Positions 19,464 to 26,061 of a stretch of 42,480 nucleotides of DNA are shown in pieces. Position numbers and translations under genes: made by a program. This DNA comes from Sphaerochaeta sp. (GTDB lineage: Bacteria; Spirochaetota; Spirochaetia; Sphaerochaetales; Sphaerochaetaceae): NCBI GenBank assembly GCA_004294855.1, contig SHOI01000005.1:1-42480 (forward strand), in the 5' to 3' direction. Positions within the stretch are counted from its first letter, which is position 1; each line of letters opens with the position of its first letter. The notes below the pieces were generated by a model. The model was not told the origin of the DNA. It ran no database searches and saw nothing but the letters and a program-made list of their open reading frames with translations.

Positions 19464-19492
19464 TAGACAGAGTCGCTCCTCTTTGATATTGT
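19464..19492 (+). promoter_or_regulatory. pyr operon promoter
   Basis: TAGACA (19464-19469), 17 bases, TATTGT (19487-19492). Initiation near 19499 would place the leader peptide ATG about 20 bases into the transcript. Confidence 0.5.
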
Positions 19493-19518
19493 ACAGAACA
19501 GAAATGAGGAGGCTTCAG

Positions 19519-19587
19519 ATGAAGGCACATGCACTCTACCGTGTTCGGAAATCTGAATCCAATGTTGTTGCACACAGTCGGCTTTAG
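19519..19587 (+). CDS. pyrBI leader peptide (22 residues)
   Basis: A short frame with its own GAGGAGG Shine-Dalgarno (19506-19512), six bases before ATG 19519, encodes a basic 22-residue peptide beginning MKAHALYRVRK. Its TAG stop at 19585-19587 lies in the loop of the terminator hairpin immediately before pyrBI. A ribosome translating to the end would cover the left arm and stop the terminator from forming. This is the arrangement of enterobacterial pyrBI attenuation, where low UTP slows RNA polymerase so that the ribosome stays close. The peptide sequence itself need not matter. No U-rich pause tract as strong as in E. coli is visible. Confidence 0.65.
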   Translation: MKAHALYRVRKSESNVVAHSRL

Positions 19588-19602
19588 GGCCGGCTTTTTT
19601 TT
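19576..19602 (+). terminator. pyrBI attenuator (intrinsic terminator)
   Basis: AGTCGGC (19576-19582) pairs over seven base pairs, with one T-G wobble, with GCCGGCT (19589-19595). The loop is six bases and eight T residues follow (19595-19602). It lies between the leader peptide and the pyrBI Shine-Dalgarno (GGGAGGAG), so it must be bypassed for operon expression. Confidence 0.8.
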
Positions 19603-19618
19603 ATTCGGGAGGAGAACG

Positions 19619-21205
19619 ATGGGTACGTTTTATGGCCGATCACTGTGCGTGATCGACGATCTTTCACAAGAAGAACGGCTGTACCTCTTTGAGCACGCGC
19701 GGATTCTCAAATCCGCGTTCGAGACTCAAGACGAAGCCGTGCTGAACCGATATCGAATCGATGATCCGGACTTCGGAATCTATGAGGTGTTTCTGGAAGA
19801 TTCGACGAGGACGAAGGAATCCTTTCGCAACGCTGCGAAGTTCCATCACGCAAAGGTCTCGGATCTCAACAGCGGTTCCTCCTCCTTCAACAAAGGGGAA
19901 AGTTACGCGGACACGTTCTATACCCTCAGCGGTTACTCCAATACGATTTTCATCGTCCGGAGCAAAGTCGAGGGAGTATGCACCTATCTGGAGGAGAGCC
20001 TCACCTCCTACGCCAGACGAAACGGCTTGAAGCGAAAACCGGCGTTCATCAACGCCGGTGACGGCAAACACGAGCACCCCACCCAAGAGCTGCTTGATGA
20101 GTTCACGTTCCTGGAGGATAACAACTGGTCGACGGAAACCCTTCACCTCGCCCTGGTCGGAGATCTGTATCACGGGCGAACGGTCCACTCCAAAGCGGAC
20201 GGCTTGAAGATCTTTAAGAACGTCACTGTAGACCTGATTGCACCGCCCGAGCTGGCGATGCCTGAAACATACCTCCACAAGATGAAAGACCACGGGTTCA
20301 CCGTGCGAACCTTCGACTCGATCGATGCCTACCTCAAAGAAACGGTAATCGCCCCAAAGTGGTATTTTACCCGTCCTCAGCTGGAACGGATGGGTGACAA
20401 GGTCCTGAAGAAGGAAGCGGAGCTGAGGCGGGCGATCACCTTCCGGGAAGAGCTGATTCCCCTTCTGCCTCTGAATACGAAGTTCTATCATCCGCTTCCC
20501 CGCCATAAGGCGCACCCGACGATTCCCACCTTTCTGGATGAAACGCCGCTGAACGGATGGGAGCGGCAGAGCATCAACGGGATGTATGTCCGAATCGTTC
20601 TCCTTGCCCTGATCGCAGGAAAGATCGGGGGTGAGTTTGTCTCGGCAAGGCCTCCGGTCGTCGAAGAGGAGGATTACATCAAGGAAGTGAACCTCGAGGA
20701 CCGAGTCCCCCAAGAGAAGCGGATCAGCGAAGGAGTGCAGCCGATTCACGATGGAATCGTTATCGACCACATCCTCCGCGGGTATGAGATCGGTGAGATC
20801 CGCGACCATATGCGCCTGATCAGCAGCGTATTGGAACTGGATCGAGGAAAGGGAGGGGAGTGGGTTTCCAGCGGACAGCAAGGGATCCATAAAGGGATCA
20901 TCTTCCGCCCCGGCTCCTATGAGCTCGATCGCAAGCACCTCAAGCGCTTGGCGGCCGTCGCCCCGGGCTCCACGTTGAATCTCATCAAAGACGGAAAGGT
21001 TCAGCGCAAGTTCCGCCTCTCGTTGCCGCCGAGAATCTACAACTTTGAAGATCTCGGGTGCACGAACGAGGCGTGCATCAGCCATCCCAGCCAGGAGGAA
21101 GGGGTCATGGCCCGCTTTTATCGAACGCAGGAAAACACCTTTGCCTGCGCCTACTGCGGCAAAGAGCATGGGTTCAAAGAAATATGGAAGCGCAGCAGGA
21201 AATAG
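19619..21205 (+). CDS. pyrBI: Aspartate carbamoyltransferase, fused catalytic and regulatory chains (PyrB-PyrI)
   Basis: The enzyme joins carbamoyl phosphate and aspartate in the committed step of pyrimidine synthesis. The 528-residue chain starts with a complete PyrB: DSTRT (61-65) for carbamoyl phosphate, HPTQ (153-156) and HPLPR (291-295). From about residue 380 it continues as PyrI, with an allosteric domain (VIDHILRGYEIGEI...) and a zinc domain whose four cysteines are C481, C486, C510 and C513. Fused PyrBI proteins are known from Thermotoga and treponemes. Fusion fixes a 1:1 chain ratio and keeps CTP/ATP feedback possible. GGGAGGAG precedes ATG 19619; a longer reading from 19529 would cross the terminator. 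It leads the pyrimidine operon. Confidence 0.95.
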   Translation: MGTFYGRSLCVIDDLSQEERLYLFEHARILKSAFETQDEAVLNRYRIDDPDFGIYEVFLEDSTRTKESFRNAAKFHHAKVSDLNSGSSSFNKGESYADTFYTLSGYSNTIFIVRSKVEGVCTYLEESLTSYARRNGLKRKPAFINAGDGKHEHPTQELLDEFTFLEDNNWSTETLHLALVGDLYHGRTVHSKADGLKIFKNVTVDLIAPPELAMPETYLHKMKDHGFTVRTFDSIDAYLKETVIAPKWYFTRPQLERMGDKVLKKEAELRRAITFREELIPLLPLNTKFYHPLPRHKAHPTIPTFLDETPLNGWERQSINGMYVRIVLLALIAGKIGGEFVSARPPVVEEEDYIKEVNLEDRVPQEKRISEGVQPIHDGIVIDHILRGYEIGEIRDHMRLISSVLELDRGKGGEWVSSGQQGIHKGIIFRPGSYELDRKHLKRLAAVAPGSTLNLIKDGKVQRKFRLSLPPRIYNFEDLGCTNEACISHPSQEEGVMARFYRTQENTFACAYCGKEHGFKEIWKRSRK

Positions 21206-21222: not shown

Positions 21223-21921
21223 ATGAACAACCTCAAAAAAATTACTCAAGCATATGGGCCGAAAATCGCCCGGGTGGCGTTCGAGCTCGGGGCGATTCGC
21301 CTCAACGTCACCGATCCCTTCCGGTGGGTCAGCGGCTACCGGATGCCGATCTACAACGACAACCGACGCCTGCTCGCTTCCGGCAAAGTTCGGGCGCTCG
21401 TCGCCGAAGGGTTTGAAGCGATTCTGAACGCGTTGGAGTACGATCCCGATTCGATCGCCGGAACAGCGACGGCGGGAATTCCCCACGCAACCACCTTGGC
21501 CGATCGATTGGGAAAACCCCTTTCGTATGTCCGTTCCTCAAGCAAAGGGCACGGCCTCGGAAACCGGATCGAGGGGCTGGCGAAAGGCGGAACGTATGAG
21601 AACACCCATGTCCTTTTGATCGAAGATCTGATCTCCACCGGTCTTTCATCGACGAGCGCCGTCGAAGCGATCGTCGCGGCCAAGGGGCAGTGCCCCTATA
21701 CGCTGGCGATCTTCACCTATGGGTTTGCGGCAGCCGAAGAAGCGTTCGCCGCATTGAACCCGAAAGCGGCATTTCATACGATTCTCACCTATGAAGTGAT
21801 GCTCTCAAGCGCCCTGAAAGAAGGGTATATCTCACGATCCGAGGCGGAAAGCCTCGAGGCATGGAGCAGCGATCCCTTCGGATGGGGAATAGAGCGGGGC
21901 TTCATGAGGGAGGAAGGATGA
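21223..21921 (+). CDS. pyrE: Orotate phosphoribosyltransferase
   Basis: PyrE transfers the phosphoribosyl group of PRPP to orotate to form OMP. The 232-residue protein has the type I phosphoribosyltransferase fold: RWVSGYRMPIYNDNR near the N-terminus, GTATAGIPHAT, YVRSSSKGHGLGNRIEG with the flexible-loop lysine, and the PRPP loop VLLIEDLISTG (130-140). It begins 17 bases after pyrBI with AAGAAG upstream and ends in an ATGA overlap with pyrF. Its substrate PRPP comes from prs, also in this window. Confidence 0.95.
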   Translation: MNNLKKITQAYGPKIARVAFELGAIRLNVTDPFRWVSGYRMPIYNDNRRLLASGKVRALVAEGFEAILNALEYDPDSIAGTATAGIPHATTLADRLGKPLSYVRSSSKGHGLGNRIEGLAKGGTYENTHVLLIEDLISTGLSSTSAVEAIVAAKGQCPYTLAIFTYGFAAAEEAFAALNPKAAFHTILTYEVMLSSALKEGYISRSEAESLEAWSSDPFGWGIERGFMREEG

Positions 21922-22784
21922 CGTACAGGGAATTGCTTGAAACAAGTGCAAAGCAGGTCGGAAACGTGGTGTGTATGGGCTTGGATGTGAAGCCGGAGCT
22001 TCTTCCCCATGCTGAACAGGGAATCCGCCACCGGCTGAACACCTACTTCCAACAGCTCTTTCGGCGGATGAATCTTTCGGGCCTCCTGCCGGCTGCGTTC
22101 AAGCCGAATATCGGCTACTATGCTGTGCTGGACAATCCCCGGGAGGAGGAGTTCTCAGGTTCGCTCGCCCTGGCCGATCTCTTCGATCTCTTGGAAAACT
22201 TCTTTCCCAATATTCCAATCATCCTCGATTCAAAGCGTGGTGACATTGCGACAAGCAGCCGGAACTACGCCGATGAAGCGTTCAAACGGTGGAGAGCGAA
22301 CGCGATCACCGTCGCCCCCTATATGGGCAGCGACTCCGTCGGACCGTTCATTCAGGATTCCACGTTTGGAACATACATTCTCAATCGAACGAGCAATCCC
22401 GGGGGGAAGGATCTGCAGAACCTCATCCTGCACAGCGAGATTCCGCTCTATGAAGCGGTGGCCAAGCAGATCATCGCCTACAATGCCGGGAAGGGGCATG
22501 TCGGAGCGGTGGTCGGGGCAACCAATCCGGAGGAGCTGAAAGCAATCGCCAAAACATATGCCGAGCAGTCGATTCCGCTGTTGATTCCGGGAGTGGGAAG
22601 CCAGGGAGGCTCCGCAACCGATGTGATGAGGATCCTCCGCGAGGTGAACTATCCCTTGCCATTGGTTCGGATCAACAGCTCCAGCGCCTTGACCCATCCG
22701 TGGAAAAAGGGCCCGGCGCCGGATGACTGGCTCGATCAATGCGAGGGTTCTCTGCGAACTCTCATCGAGGAGTGCTCGCTATGA
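21918..22784 (+). CDS. pyrF: Orotidine 5'-phosphate decarboxylase (type 2)
   Basis: PyrF decarboxylates OMP to UMP. The 288-residue length and sequence fit the longer type 2 subfamily: VCMGLDVKPEL, FKPNIGYY, the catalytic D104-x-K106-x-x-D109 (DSKRGD) and VVGATNPEEL, with PLLIPGVGSQGG for the phosphate. The ATG at 21918 overlaps the pyrE stop (ATGA) and the Shine-Dalgarno is GGGAGGAAGG just upstream. The stop overlaps the pyrDK start in the same way. A longer start at 21861 would lie inside pyrE. Confidence 0.95.
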   Translation: MTYRELLETSAKQVGNVVCMGLDVKPELLPHAEQGIRHRLNTYFQQLFRRMNLSGLLPAAFKPNIGYYAVLDNPREEEFSGSLALADLFDLLENFFPNIPIILDSKRGDIATSSRNYADEAFKRWRANAITVAPYMGSDSVGPFIQDSTFGTYILNRTSNPGGKDLQNLILHSEIPLYEAVAKQIIAYNAGKGHVGAVVGATNPEELKAIAKTYAEQSIPLLIPGVGSQGGSATDVMRILREVNYPLPLVRINSSSALTHPWKKGPAPDDWLDQCEGSLRTLIEECSL

Positions 22785-24493
22785 GTGATGTGCTTCAACG
22801 CTTGATGAATCAAGAGGTTCTTCTTGCCACCGTCAGCGGGGTGGGTTCCACAAAAGCGGAACTGATCCGCTACTTCGATGAGTCGGTGGAGGCGATCGAT
22901 CTCATCACCACCAAGAGCTTCCAGAACGAACCGAACCCGGGGAACCGCGAACCGATCATCTGCGAAGTGGAGAAAGGAACGTTCGGAAACTCGGTAGGGC
23001 TGAGAAATCCCGGGCTGGAGGTGGCCCTCCATGAACTTCGAGAGCTCAGGAAAACCCACTCCTTCCGAGCTCTGTTGAATGTGTCGCTCTCCGCCTCCAC
23101 GCCCGAAGACTTCGTAACACTCGTCAAAGCGTTTGATGAAGTCGCCGATCTTGTGGAACTGAACTTCTCCTGCCCGCACGCCGAGCCGGGGTACGGCTCG
23201 ACGATCGGGGAGAACCTTAAGCTTGCCGCCCATTACGTGCGCTTCATCAAGGCGAACACCGTCGAATGCGAGGCGCCCCTGTTTGTGAAATTGACGCCGA
23301 ACGTCGAAGATATCGCCTCGATCGCCAAAGCGGTCGTCGAAGCGGGGGCGGACGGGATCGTCGCGATCAATACGGTCGGACCGCTCCTCTACATCGATCC
23401 TGCATCCAGAAAGCCGATTCTCCAGAACAGGCTCGGCGGAAAGGGCGGGCAAAGCGGAAAAGCGGTCTTTCCGATCGCCCTCAAGGCGATAAAAGAGATT
23501 CGGGAAGCGCTCGGGACGGGGATCCCGATCATCGGAATGGGCGGGGTCGATTCAGGGGCGGATGCGGCGAAGCTCATTGAAGCGGGGGCGAACGTCGTCG
23601 GCATCGGATCCGCTCTCGGCACGGTGGACCAACGCTCCTGGCCCCGATACCTTCGGGCGATCAAAGAGGAGGCGGATCATCTCCTCTATAGCGGAAAAAA
23701 GCCTGCGGTCTCTTCCGCTTCCTTCATCAAGACCCATCGCCAGATGGAGTATCGAAAGCACATCGTGCTTGAGAATGAACCCTACGGCAGTGACACGGCG
23801 ATTCTTCGGCTCGACGGCAGGCTTCCCACCAAAGCCGGGCAATTCGCCTTTTTATGGCTGCCGCAGATCGGGGAAAAACCCTTCTCGGTAGCCCACAACG
23901 ATCCGTTGACCTTCGTGATCAAGCGAAGGGGGCCGTTCAGTGATGCACTATGCTCCTTGCGGAAGGGTGACGAAGTGTATATCCGCGGTCTCTATGGCCA
24001 GGGCTTCGATCCTCCGGAAACGAAGAAAGCCCTGCTCATCGGAGGCGGCACGGGCGTGGCGGTGCTGCCCGCCCTGGCCGAGCAGTTGTCCAAACGAGGA
24101 ACAGAGGTCGAGATCCTGGTCGGAACCAGCGAAGCGGTTGAAACGACCGCTCTGCTGGAAGAGAAGCTTTCCTCCTACGGATCATTCGTCTGCGTAGCGG
24201 ATGAAGGAAAACCGGGGCGGGTGCTGGATCTGCTCGATGGACGAACGTTTGATGGGGAGACGGCGTGTTATCTGGTCGGCCCTCAAGTCTTCATGGCGCT
24301 TGCCGCCCGGACGGTACTCAGTGGGGGAGTGAAGGAAGAGATGCTCTATCTTTCGCAGGAGCTGATGACATTATGCGGAATCGGGATGTGCGGGGAGTGC
24401 GTCTGCGGAGATCGGCTGACGTGCCGGTGGGGGACGTTCATGGAGTACCGGTATCTGAAAGAGCATGCTCCCTCCCTGATCGCCTATGATTGA
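22781..24493 (+). CDS. pyrD: Dihydroorotate dehydrogenase class 1B fused to its electron-transfer subunit (PyrD-PyrK)
   Basis: The protein oxidises dihydroorotate to orotate and passes electrons to NAD. In most bacteria class 1B enzymes are two proteins; here one 570-residue chain holds both. Residues 1-~310 are the FMN barrel (NFSCPH with catalytic C131; NTVGPLLYIDPASRKPIL; GIPIIGMGGVDSGADA). Residues ~318-570 are PyrK: an FAD-binding barrel (AGQFAFLWLP, KPFSVAH), an NAD-binding part with GGGTGVAVL, and a 2Fe-2S site with C532, C537, C540 and C548. There is no stop or frame change between the halves. ATGA overlap links it to pyrF, and it overlaps pyrC by eight bases. Confidence 0.94.
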   Translation: MSDVLQRLMNQEVLLATVSGVGSTKAELIRYFDESVEAIDLITTKSFQNEPNPGNREPIICEVEKGTFGNSVGLRNPGLEVALHELRELRKTHSFRALLNVSLSASTPEDFVTLVKAFDEVADLVELNFSCPHAEPGYGSTIGENLKLAAHYVRFIKANTVECEAPLFVKLTPNVEDIASIAKAVVEAGADGIVAINTVGPLLYIDPASRKPILQNRLGGKGGQSGKAVFPIALKAIKEIREALGTGIPIIGMGGVDSGADAAKLIEAGANVVGIGSALGTVDQRSWPRYLRAIKEEADHLLYSGKKPAVSSASFIKTHRQMEYRKHIVLENEPYGSDTAILRLDGRLPTKAGQFAFLWLPQIGEKPFSVAHNDPLTFVIKRRGPFSDALCSLRKGDEVYIRGLYGQGFDPPETKKALLIGGGTGVAVLPALAEQLSKRGTEVEILVGTSEAVETTALLEEKLSSYGSFVCVADEGKPGRVLDLLDGRTFDGETACYLVGPQVFMALAARTVLSGGVKEEMLYLSQELMTLCGIGMCGECVCGDRLTCRWGTFMEYRYLKEHAPSLIAYD

Positions 24494-25532
24494 TCCGCAC
24501 GTCCACCTTCGAGATTGGAACCTCAGCGCAAAGGAAACGCTTGCCCACGGGCTTCTCGTGGCTGAAAGAAGCGGGTTCACCGCAGTCATCGATATGCCCA
24601 ACACCGATCCGCCGTTGACGACAAAAGCGCGGATCATCAAGCGGATCGAAGCCGCAAACAGGACAAAGAGAAACGTTTCCTATCATCTCTGGGCAGGGGT
24701 GACAGGCGACCCCGCTCAGATCGACGAGGTTGTCAAAAGCTGCGAAGAGCTCTTTCCTTCCGTAGTCGGATTAAAGCTCTTCGCCGGACACTCCACCGGC
24801 AACATGGGCCTTGTCGAAGAGGAGATCCAAGGGCGGGTCTACCGCCATCTGGCGAGGCGAAACTACACCGGCGTCGTTGCGATTCATTGCGAAAAAGAAG
24901 CGCTACTGCGCCCCGAGCTGTATGACAATGCCGATCTTTCAACCCAATCCTTGGCCCGGCCTCCCGAGGCGGAGGTCGCTTCGATCCGGGATCAGCTCTC
25001 CTTCAGCAAGGAGGCGGGCTTCGCCGGTCACCTGCACATCGCCCACCTGTCCACGATCGAAGGGCTTTTGCTTGTGGAAGAAGCCAAGAGGGAGGGAAGG
25101 AGAATCAGCTGCGGCGTAACTCCTCATCATCTCCTATTGAACCGGGACATGGCGAAAGATCGAAGGCTCTATGCGAAGATGAATCCGCCGCTGCGGGATG
25201 AGGAAACACGTAAAAAGCTCTTTGAAGCCCTGCTTGAAGGGCGGATCGACTGGATTGAGAGCGATCATGCCCCCCATACGATCGCCGACAAGGAAACGGG
25301 GGCAAGCGGCATTCCCGGGTTCAGCGGGATGCTCCTCCTCTTGAAGGTGTTGTATGAACATGGTCTCTCAAGAGGCATGATGCAAAGCCTCTTTGGGGGC
25401 AACGTCCAACGAACGCTGAAGCTTCCTCCCCGAGAGATCGTCCTGCCCTCCTATGAGGCACTGCCCCCTCTGATCGCAGCGGCCTCCGGGGAATACCCCT
25501 ACGACAGCTTCAGAGGCCTATTTCAGAGCTGA
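24486..25532 (+). CDS. pyrC: Dihydroorotase
   Basis: The zinc amidohydrolase closes carbamoyl aspartate to dihydroorotate. The 348-residue protein begins MIDPHVHLRD, so the metal-binding H5-x-H7 lies almost at the N-terminus. The small beta-sandwich part that precedes it in longer type I dihydroorotases is largely missing. Other marks are DMPNTDPPLT, GLKLFAGHSTGNMG (metal-bridging lysine), HCEKE, HIAHLST, CGVTPHHLLL, and ESDHAPHT with the catalytic aspartate. The ATG lies eight bases inside pyrDK, so expression is coupled. This completes PyrB, C, D, E and F in one operon; carA and carB are absent here. The 3' end overlaps the convergent HD gene by 23 bases. Confidence 0.93.
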   Translation: MIDPHVHLRDWNLSAKETLAHGLLVAERSGFTAVIDMPNTDPPLTTKARIIKRIEAANRTKRNVSYHLWAGVTGDPAQIDEVVKSCEELFPSVVGLKLFAGHSTGNMGLVEEEIQGRVYRHLARRNYTGVVAIHCEKEALLRPELYDNADLSTQSLARPPEAEVASIRDQLSFSKEAGFAGHLHIAHLSTIEGLLLVEEAKREGRRISCGVTPHHLLLNRDMAKDRRLYAKMNPPLRDEETRKKLFEALLEGRIDWIESDHAPHTIADKETGASGIPGFSGMLLLLKVLYEHGLSRGMMQSLFGGNVQRTLKLPPREIVLPSYEALPPLIAAASGEYPYDSFRGLFQS

Positions 25533-26061
25533 TCTCCCCCATAGCTTCGATCGTCCGGGCGATGATGTCATTGAGTTCAAGACCGAGCAGCTCCGCTCCT
25601 TTTGCGATGACTTCACGGTTCACCCCCTTGGCGAAGGAGGGGCTGGACCATTTTTTTCTGACGCTCTTCACACTCATCCCTTTCATCCGCTCCGGCCTCA
25701 TCAGGGCGTTCGCGTAGATCAACCCGGTGAGCTCATCAATCGTGTAGAGCACCTTTTCCATGAAATGGACCGGTTCAACATCACTGCAAAGACCCCATCC
25801 ATGGCTTACCACCGCTCGGATGAACGCTTCATCGACGTCGATCTCGGAGAGGAGCTTCGGAGCGACTTGGCAGTGTCGGTCGGAATAGAGGGCATAATCG
25901 ATGTCGTGAAGAAGTCCGACCAACGACCAGTAGGTCTCATCATATCCATAATGCCGAGCGAAGCTTTTCATCGTCGCTTCCACGCAATAGGCGTGGTGGA
26001 GATGAGCCTCATCGGGGGTGTATTTTTTCAAAAGAGCAAGCGCTTCACTTCGGGTGACCAT
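25510..26061 (-). CDS. HD domain phosphohydrolase-like protein
   Basis: The 183-residue soluble protein has the HD-fold metal pattern: H22/H23 in HLHHAYCVEATM, H52-D53 in GLLHDIDYALYSDRH, then a later histidine in AVVSHGWG and an aspartate in TIDELTGLI. Such small HD proteins hydrolyse phosphoesters, often of nucleotides, but this group has no assigned substrate that I can name. AAGGAGG stands before ATG 26061; the frame stays open further upstream without another Shine-Dalgarno. It is divergent from the cysteine-cluster gene. Confidence 0.82.
   Translation of the reverse strand: MVTRSEALALLKKYTPDEAHLHHAYCVEATMKSFARHYGYDETYWSLVGLLHDIDYALYSDRHCQVAPKLLSEIDVDEAFIRAVVSHGWGLCSDVEPVHFMEKVLYTIDELTGLIYANALMRPERMKGMSVKSVRKKWSSPSFAKGVNREVIAKGAELLGLELNDIIARTIEAMGEISSEIGL

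Follow-up and report, generated by a model that had tools for sequence, protein, structure and literature searches.

The closest described system is the pyrBI operon of Escherichia coli, in which the leader frame pyrL links UTP supply to termination. When UTP is low the polymerase pauses, the ribosome on the leader is close to it, the terminator hairpin is blocked and transcription reads through (PMC10135430). In the same organism the ribosome almost completely represses a terminator lying a few bases past a stop codon; this repression fades over ~30 bp and is abolished when translation is uncoupled (PMC4824070). Here we analysed a window of 42,480 nucleotides from a Sphaerochaeta-group genome, in which a short leader frame runs into an intrinsic terminator ahead of a pyr operon. 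Comparison with related genomes makes it likely that ribosome-coupled attenuation of the E. coli pyrBI kind, probably sensitive to UTP, controls this operon, the leader being shorter and ending at the hairpin.

Two MAGs labelled Spirochaetales supply the nearest pyrBI relatives of the window, at 95% identity; further relatives from the same genus, a number of them named Sphaerochaeta, share ~69-76% identity. The operon runs in the order pyrBI(fused)-pyrE-pyrF-pyrDK(fused)-pyrC (Table 1). The preliminary description had placed a fused PyrBI downstream of the attenuator, and this was borne out by a match to profile NF009916 (E 1e-239, 796.4 bits against a cut-off of 800). A strong terminator on the + strand, at 25617-25649 and ~85 nt past pyrC, is probably the operon end. 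A carA match was absent from the window genome (G000) and from two further Sphaerochaeta genomes (G004 and G007), which may reflect MAG incompleteness; the window does contain the remainder of the pyr pathway.

Table 1. Features of the pyr leader and operon in the window.
Feature	Coordinates	Strand	Remarks
Promoter: -35 TAGACA, 17-nt spacer, extended -10 (TGATATTGT)	19464..19492	+	-35 TAGACA at 19464-19469; extended -10 TG-A-TATTGT, 19487-19492
Leader-frame Shine-Dalgarno GAGGAGG	19506..19512	+	Kept in relatives
Leader reading frame MKAHALYRVRKSESNVVAHSRL, 22 codons + TAG	19519..19587	+	ATG at 19519, TAG at 19585-19587
Segment at -16 to -27 relative to the hairpin	19549..19560	+	Relatives carry a pyrimidine-rich tract here, presumably a pause site for RNA polymerase; degenerate in the window
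Intrinsic terminator	19576..19602	+	8-bp stem, 4-nt loop with leader stop, T8
pyrBI Shine-Dalgarno GGGAGGAG	19607..19614	+	pyrBI ATG at 19619
pyrBI, fused aspartate carbamoyltransferase catalytic and regulatory chains	19619..21205	+	528 aa, stop excluded
pyrE	21223..21921	+	
pyrF	21918..22784	+	TIGR02127 above cut-off
pyrD fused to electron-transfer subunit PyrK	22781..24493	+	Single protein
pyrC	24486..25532	+	

The elements named in the preliminary description, from the promoter through the loop stop codon and T8 tail to the pyrBI Shine-Dalgarno, were all found in place, as was a leader of half the E. coli length (22 against 44 codons). The terminator hairpin, AGTCGGCT-TTAG-GGCCGGCT at 19576-19595, has a predicted folding energy of -11.5 kcal/mol (z -3.26) and is followed by the T8 tail at 19595-19602. 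The TAG of the leader fills all but the first of the four loop bases (19584-19587). The promoter form T(A/G)GACA-17-TGnTAnnnT is common to nearly all Sphaerochaeta leaders, and the mean best promoter score was 8.8 compared with 7.1 for shuffled sequences (n=49 leaders).

We gathered the pyrBI upstream regions from 90 genomes of the class Spirochaetia. In 77 of these genomes the pyrBI start had a strong terminator no more than 85 nt away, and 61 leaders were kept after near-duplicates were dropped. Leader starts were picked by Shine-Dalgarno and start codon alone, blind to the frame; such a start lay 40-110 nt ahead of the hairpin in 50 of the 61 leaders, while the rule used gave none in the remaining 11. 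The leader frame ran without a stop to a point 15 nt or less from the hairpin in 46/50, compared with 15/50 for each of the +1 and +2 frames and 18.6±3.1 in dinucleotide shuffles (maximum 27 in 200 shuffles). Two of the four failures (L012 and L081) have an alternative Shine-Dalgarno-led start that yields a frame ending at the hairpin, and are attributed to a poorly chosen start. By eye, the frame also ends at the hairpin in three leaders scored without a Shine-Dalgarno start (L090, L099, and L138), so the frame count is conservative. In L092, L099, and L108 the leader start lies a few bases past a -10-like box with no Shine-Dalgarno, which suggests that these leaders may be translated leaderless.

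The positions of the stop codons point the same way. The leader stop fell within -12 to +12 of the stem start in 37/50 leaders, leaving ~13/50 that do not stop at the hairpin; shuffles gave 11.2±2.5 for a slightly wider class (-15 to the loop). At 35 of 47 pyrBI-leader terminators a Shine-Dalgarno-led frame stopped somewhere from 15 nt ahead of the stem to the loop, compared with 0 of 23 other terminators at the same loci, the 23 within the studied loci being the basis of the background rate. Codon differences within Sphaerochaeta groups were nearly all nonsynonymous (76 against 6 synonymous in the largest group, where pairs are not independent), and the L002 leader differs from that of the window by a 3-nt insertion that preserves the frame. 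Selection seems to maintain translation as far as the hairpin and not the peptide product. A conserved short frame overlapping the terminator with a drifting peptide is what the preliminary description had anticipated among relatives, and retention of the terminator with loss of the short frame or its Shine-Dalgarno was not the pattern seen across the Spirochaetia leaders. The attenuator layout was absent upstream of carA and of the uracil-permease family in a partial check, in which several loci were taken from the incorrect strand or sat at the end of a contig. In L146, L148, L149, and L151 the region upstream of carA instead carries TGTTGCAT-A/T-rich elements in repeated copies, possibly boxes like those of an arginine repressor.

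Since the leader frame runs into the terminator, the ribosome reading the leader probably decides whether the operon is expressed. Transcription from the promoter would soon meet the 22-codon frame and then the terminator before the pyr genes. If the polymerase were slowed ahead of the hairpin, as we infer happens at low UTP in pyrimidine-rich sequence, the leading ribosome would catch up; at the stop codon in the hairpin loop it would cover the 5' arm, the hairpin would be blocked and pyrBI-pyrC would be transcribed. With an unslowed polymerase the hairpin would fold ahead of the ribosome and transcription would terminate. The leader peptide itself would be of no consequence. The spirochaete stop codons are close enough to the hairpin for a ribosome sitting on one of them to overlap part of its 5' arm. 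Frame conservation and stop clustering across Spirochaetia support the ribosome-coupled, pyrBI-type reading offered in the preliminary description. The sequence comparison shows the terminator, a translated-looking frame, the position of the stop, the absence of an antiterminator and the pyrimidine tract in relatives. Polymerase pausing, UTP as the signal and blocking of the hairpin by the ribosome in vivo are presumed, pausing and the UTP signal least securely for the window itself.

With the leaders aligned on the hairpin, the C+T content at -16 to -27 was 0.69 compared with 0.53 in shuffles (z 9.6), and G was depleted. For the motif CTGTTT, 12 leaders had it against an expectation of 1.8, and for TTTCC the figures were 21 and 4.9; the E. 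coli tract, TTTTTCTTCCCG, occupies -17 to -28 from its own hairpin. The window and its two closest relatives, L002 and L003, lack the tract, their best 9-nt stretch containing 6 pyrimidines, near the shuffle mean of 6.7, yet they keep the frame, the stop and the terminator. The stop in L003 lies 1 nt ahead of the stem. The weakness of the U-rich tract noted at the outset is thus true of the window but is an exception of its small clade, as most relatives carry the tract at the E. coli position. Because the tract is missing from this clade, the presumed UTP-sensing step is least visible there. It is conceivable, though unlikely, that spirochaetes evolved a pyrBI attenuation of their own, in which a short leader ends within the hairpin or shortly ahead of it and the terminating ribosome is the blocker, the window clade having lost the tract and another cue, such as a different pause, CTP or translation speed, setting the timing. 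We think it improbable that the terminator, at least in the window clade, is ribosome-coupled with no nucleotide sensing, so that readthrough is fixed or growth-rate-dependent and UTP is not the signal. The three leaders that keep their layout without the tract would fit such an arrangement, but across the family the E. coli position shows strong enrichment of the tract, and a pyrimidine operon is the target.

Attenuation of the trp/his type, with stalling at leader codons such as an Arg/Lys-rich start switching between antiterminator and terminator, is very improbable. Early basic codons (RKRYR, KKRNS) do occur in many Sphaerochaeta leaders, but they are missing from the clade of L010, L012, and L018 and from other genera, and they lie more than 50 nt ahead of the hairpin. 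Such switching also calls for an antiterminator, and the 5' arm of the terminator finds poorer pairing in the leader than in shuffled versions of it (mean z +0.60, t 5.1), which argues that there is none and agrees with the preliminary description, where no obvious one had been seen. As for a pause hairpin, eight segments ahead of the terminator hairpin were folded and none was significant (best t -1.9). In work on E. coli pyrL, NusA assays together with mutants likewise spoke against a pause stabilised by a hairpin at the site examined there (PMC9291695).

Control by a protein or ligand, through PyrR or an unknown RNA element, is also highly doubtful. PyrR attenuates pyr operons elsewhere, but the PyrR RNA element RF00515 was found in 0/60 genomes and no PyrR protein scored above cut-off in Sphaerochaetaceae, in keeping with the earlier impression that the leader has no PyrR-type binding element. 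An Rfam search of the window at gathering and permissive thresholds gave nothing above threshold, the weak look-alikes being to terminator-ending sRNAs alone, and overall leader folding was close to that of shuffles. A predicted hairpin at 19511-19560 of the window, in which TTCAGAT at the leader start pairs with a downstream ATCTGAA, is common to the window, L002, and L003, and among these three sequences L003 retains it through one compensatory change, T-A to C-G. Such a hairpin could be taken for a regulatory element; its folding energy in the window was no better than that of shuffles. PyrR exceeded the family cut-off in 2/60 genomes (G124 and G126), both outside Sphaerochaetaceae, and these two match fused PyrBI weakly, which suggests that PyrR and the pyrBI-type attenuator may replace each other.

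Two further readings are scarcely credible, namely a frame that arose by chance at an ordinary terminator and a gene for a functional micropeptide that has a terminator of its own. Short frames are common in any sequence, but this one stays open about three times as often as its alternatives, its layout is found at none of the background terminators and its peptide is not conserved.

The attenuator layout is present across much of the spirochaete class. A literature search returned no account of spirochaete pyr attenuation; the main review, by Turnbough and Switzer, lay outside that search and may hold an earlier mention. If the UTP-sensitive, ribosome-coupled reading is true, nucleotide attenuation of the kind worked out in E. 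coli extends to a distant phylum, and it yields a prediction of how pyrimidine synthesis may be regulated in a class that mostly lacks PyrR. Dozens of natural variants, differing in where the leader stops, how long it is and what pause tract it carries, can be used to probe the timing of ribosome and polymerase in termination.

Compared with known systems, the spirochaete leaders share with Bacillus PyrR-controlled attenuators a terminator before the pyr operon, and differ in having no family PyrR above cut-off, no PyrR RNA site and no antiterminator. Unlike trp/his-type attenuators, they offer no alternative antiterminator involving the 5' arm of the terminator. The E. coli rph-pyrE attenuator has a complete gene, rph, as its upstream frame, whereas the window has a 22-codon leader. 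The relation to E. coli pyrBI is closer: in both, a promoter stands near a leader frame (predicted to be translated in the spirochaetes), an intrinsic terminator with T8 precedes the aspartate carbamoyltransferase gene, there is no antiterminator and, in most spirochaete relatives, a pyrimidine-rich tract lies ~16-28 nt ahead of the hairpin. The differences are that the spirochaetes are a separate lineage in which the catalytic and regulatory chains are fused and head a five-gene pyr operon, that the tract is weak in the window clade, that UTP control is presumptive in the spirochaetes, that the leaders have as a rule 18-33 codons and not 44, and that the frame stops at the hairpin, in the loop in the case of the window, where the E. 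coli frame continues beyond it. We call this a variant of E. coli pyrBI attenuation on account of its short leader and the stop at the hairpin.
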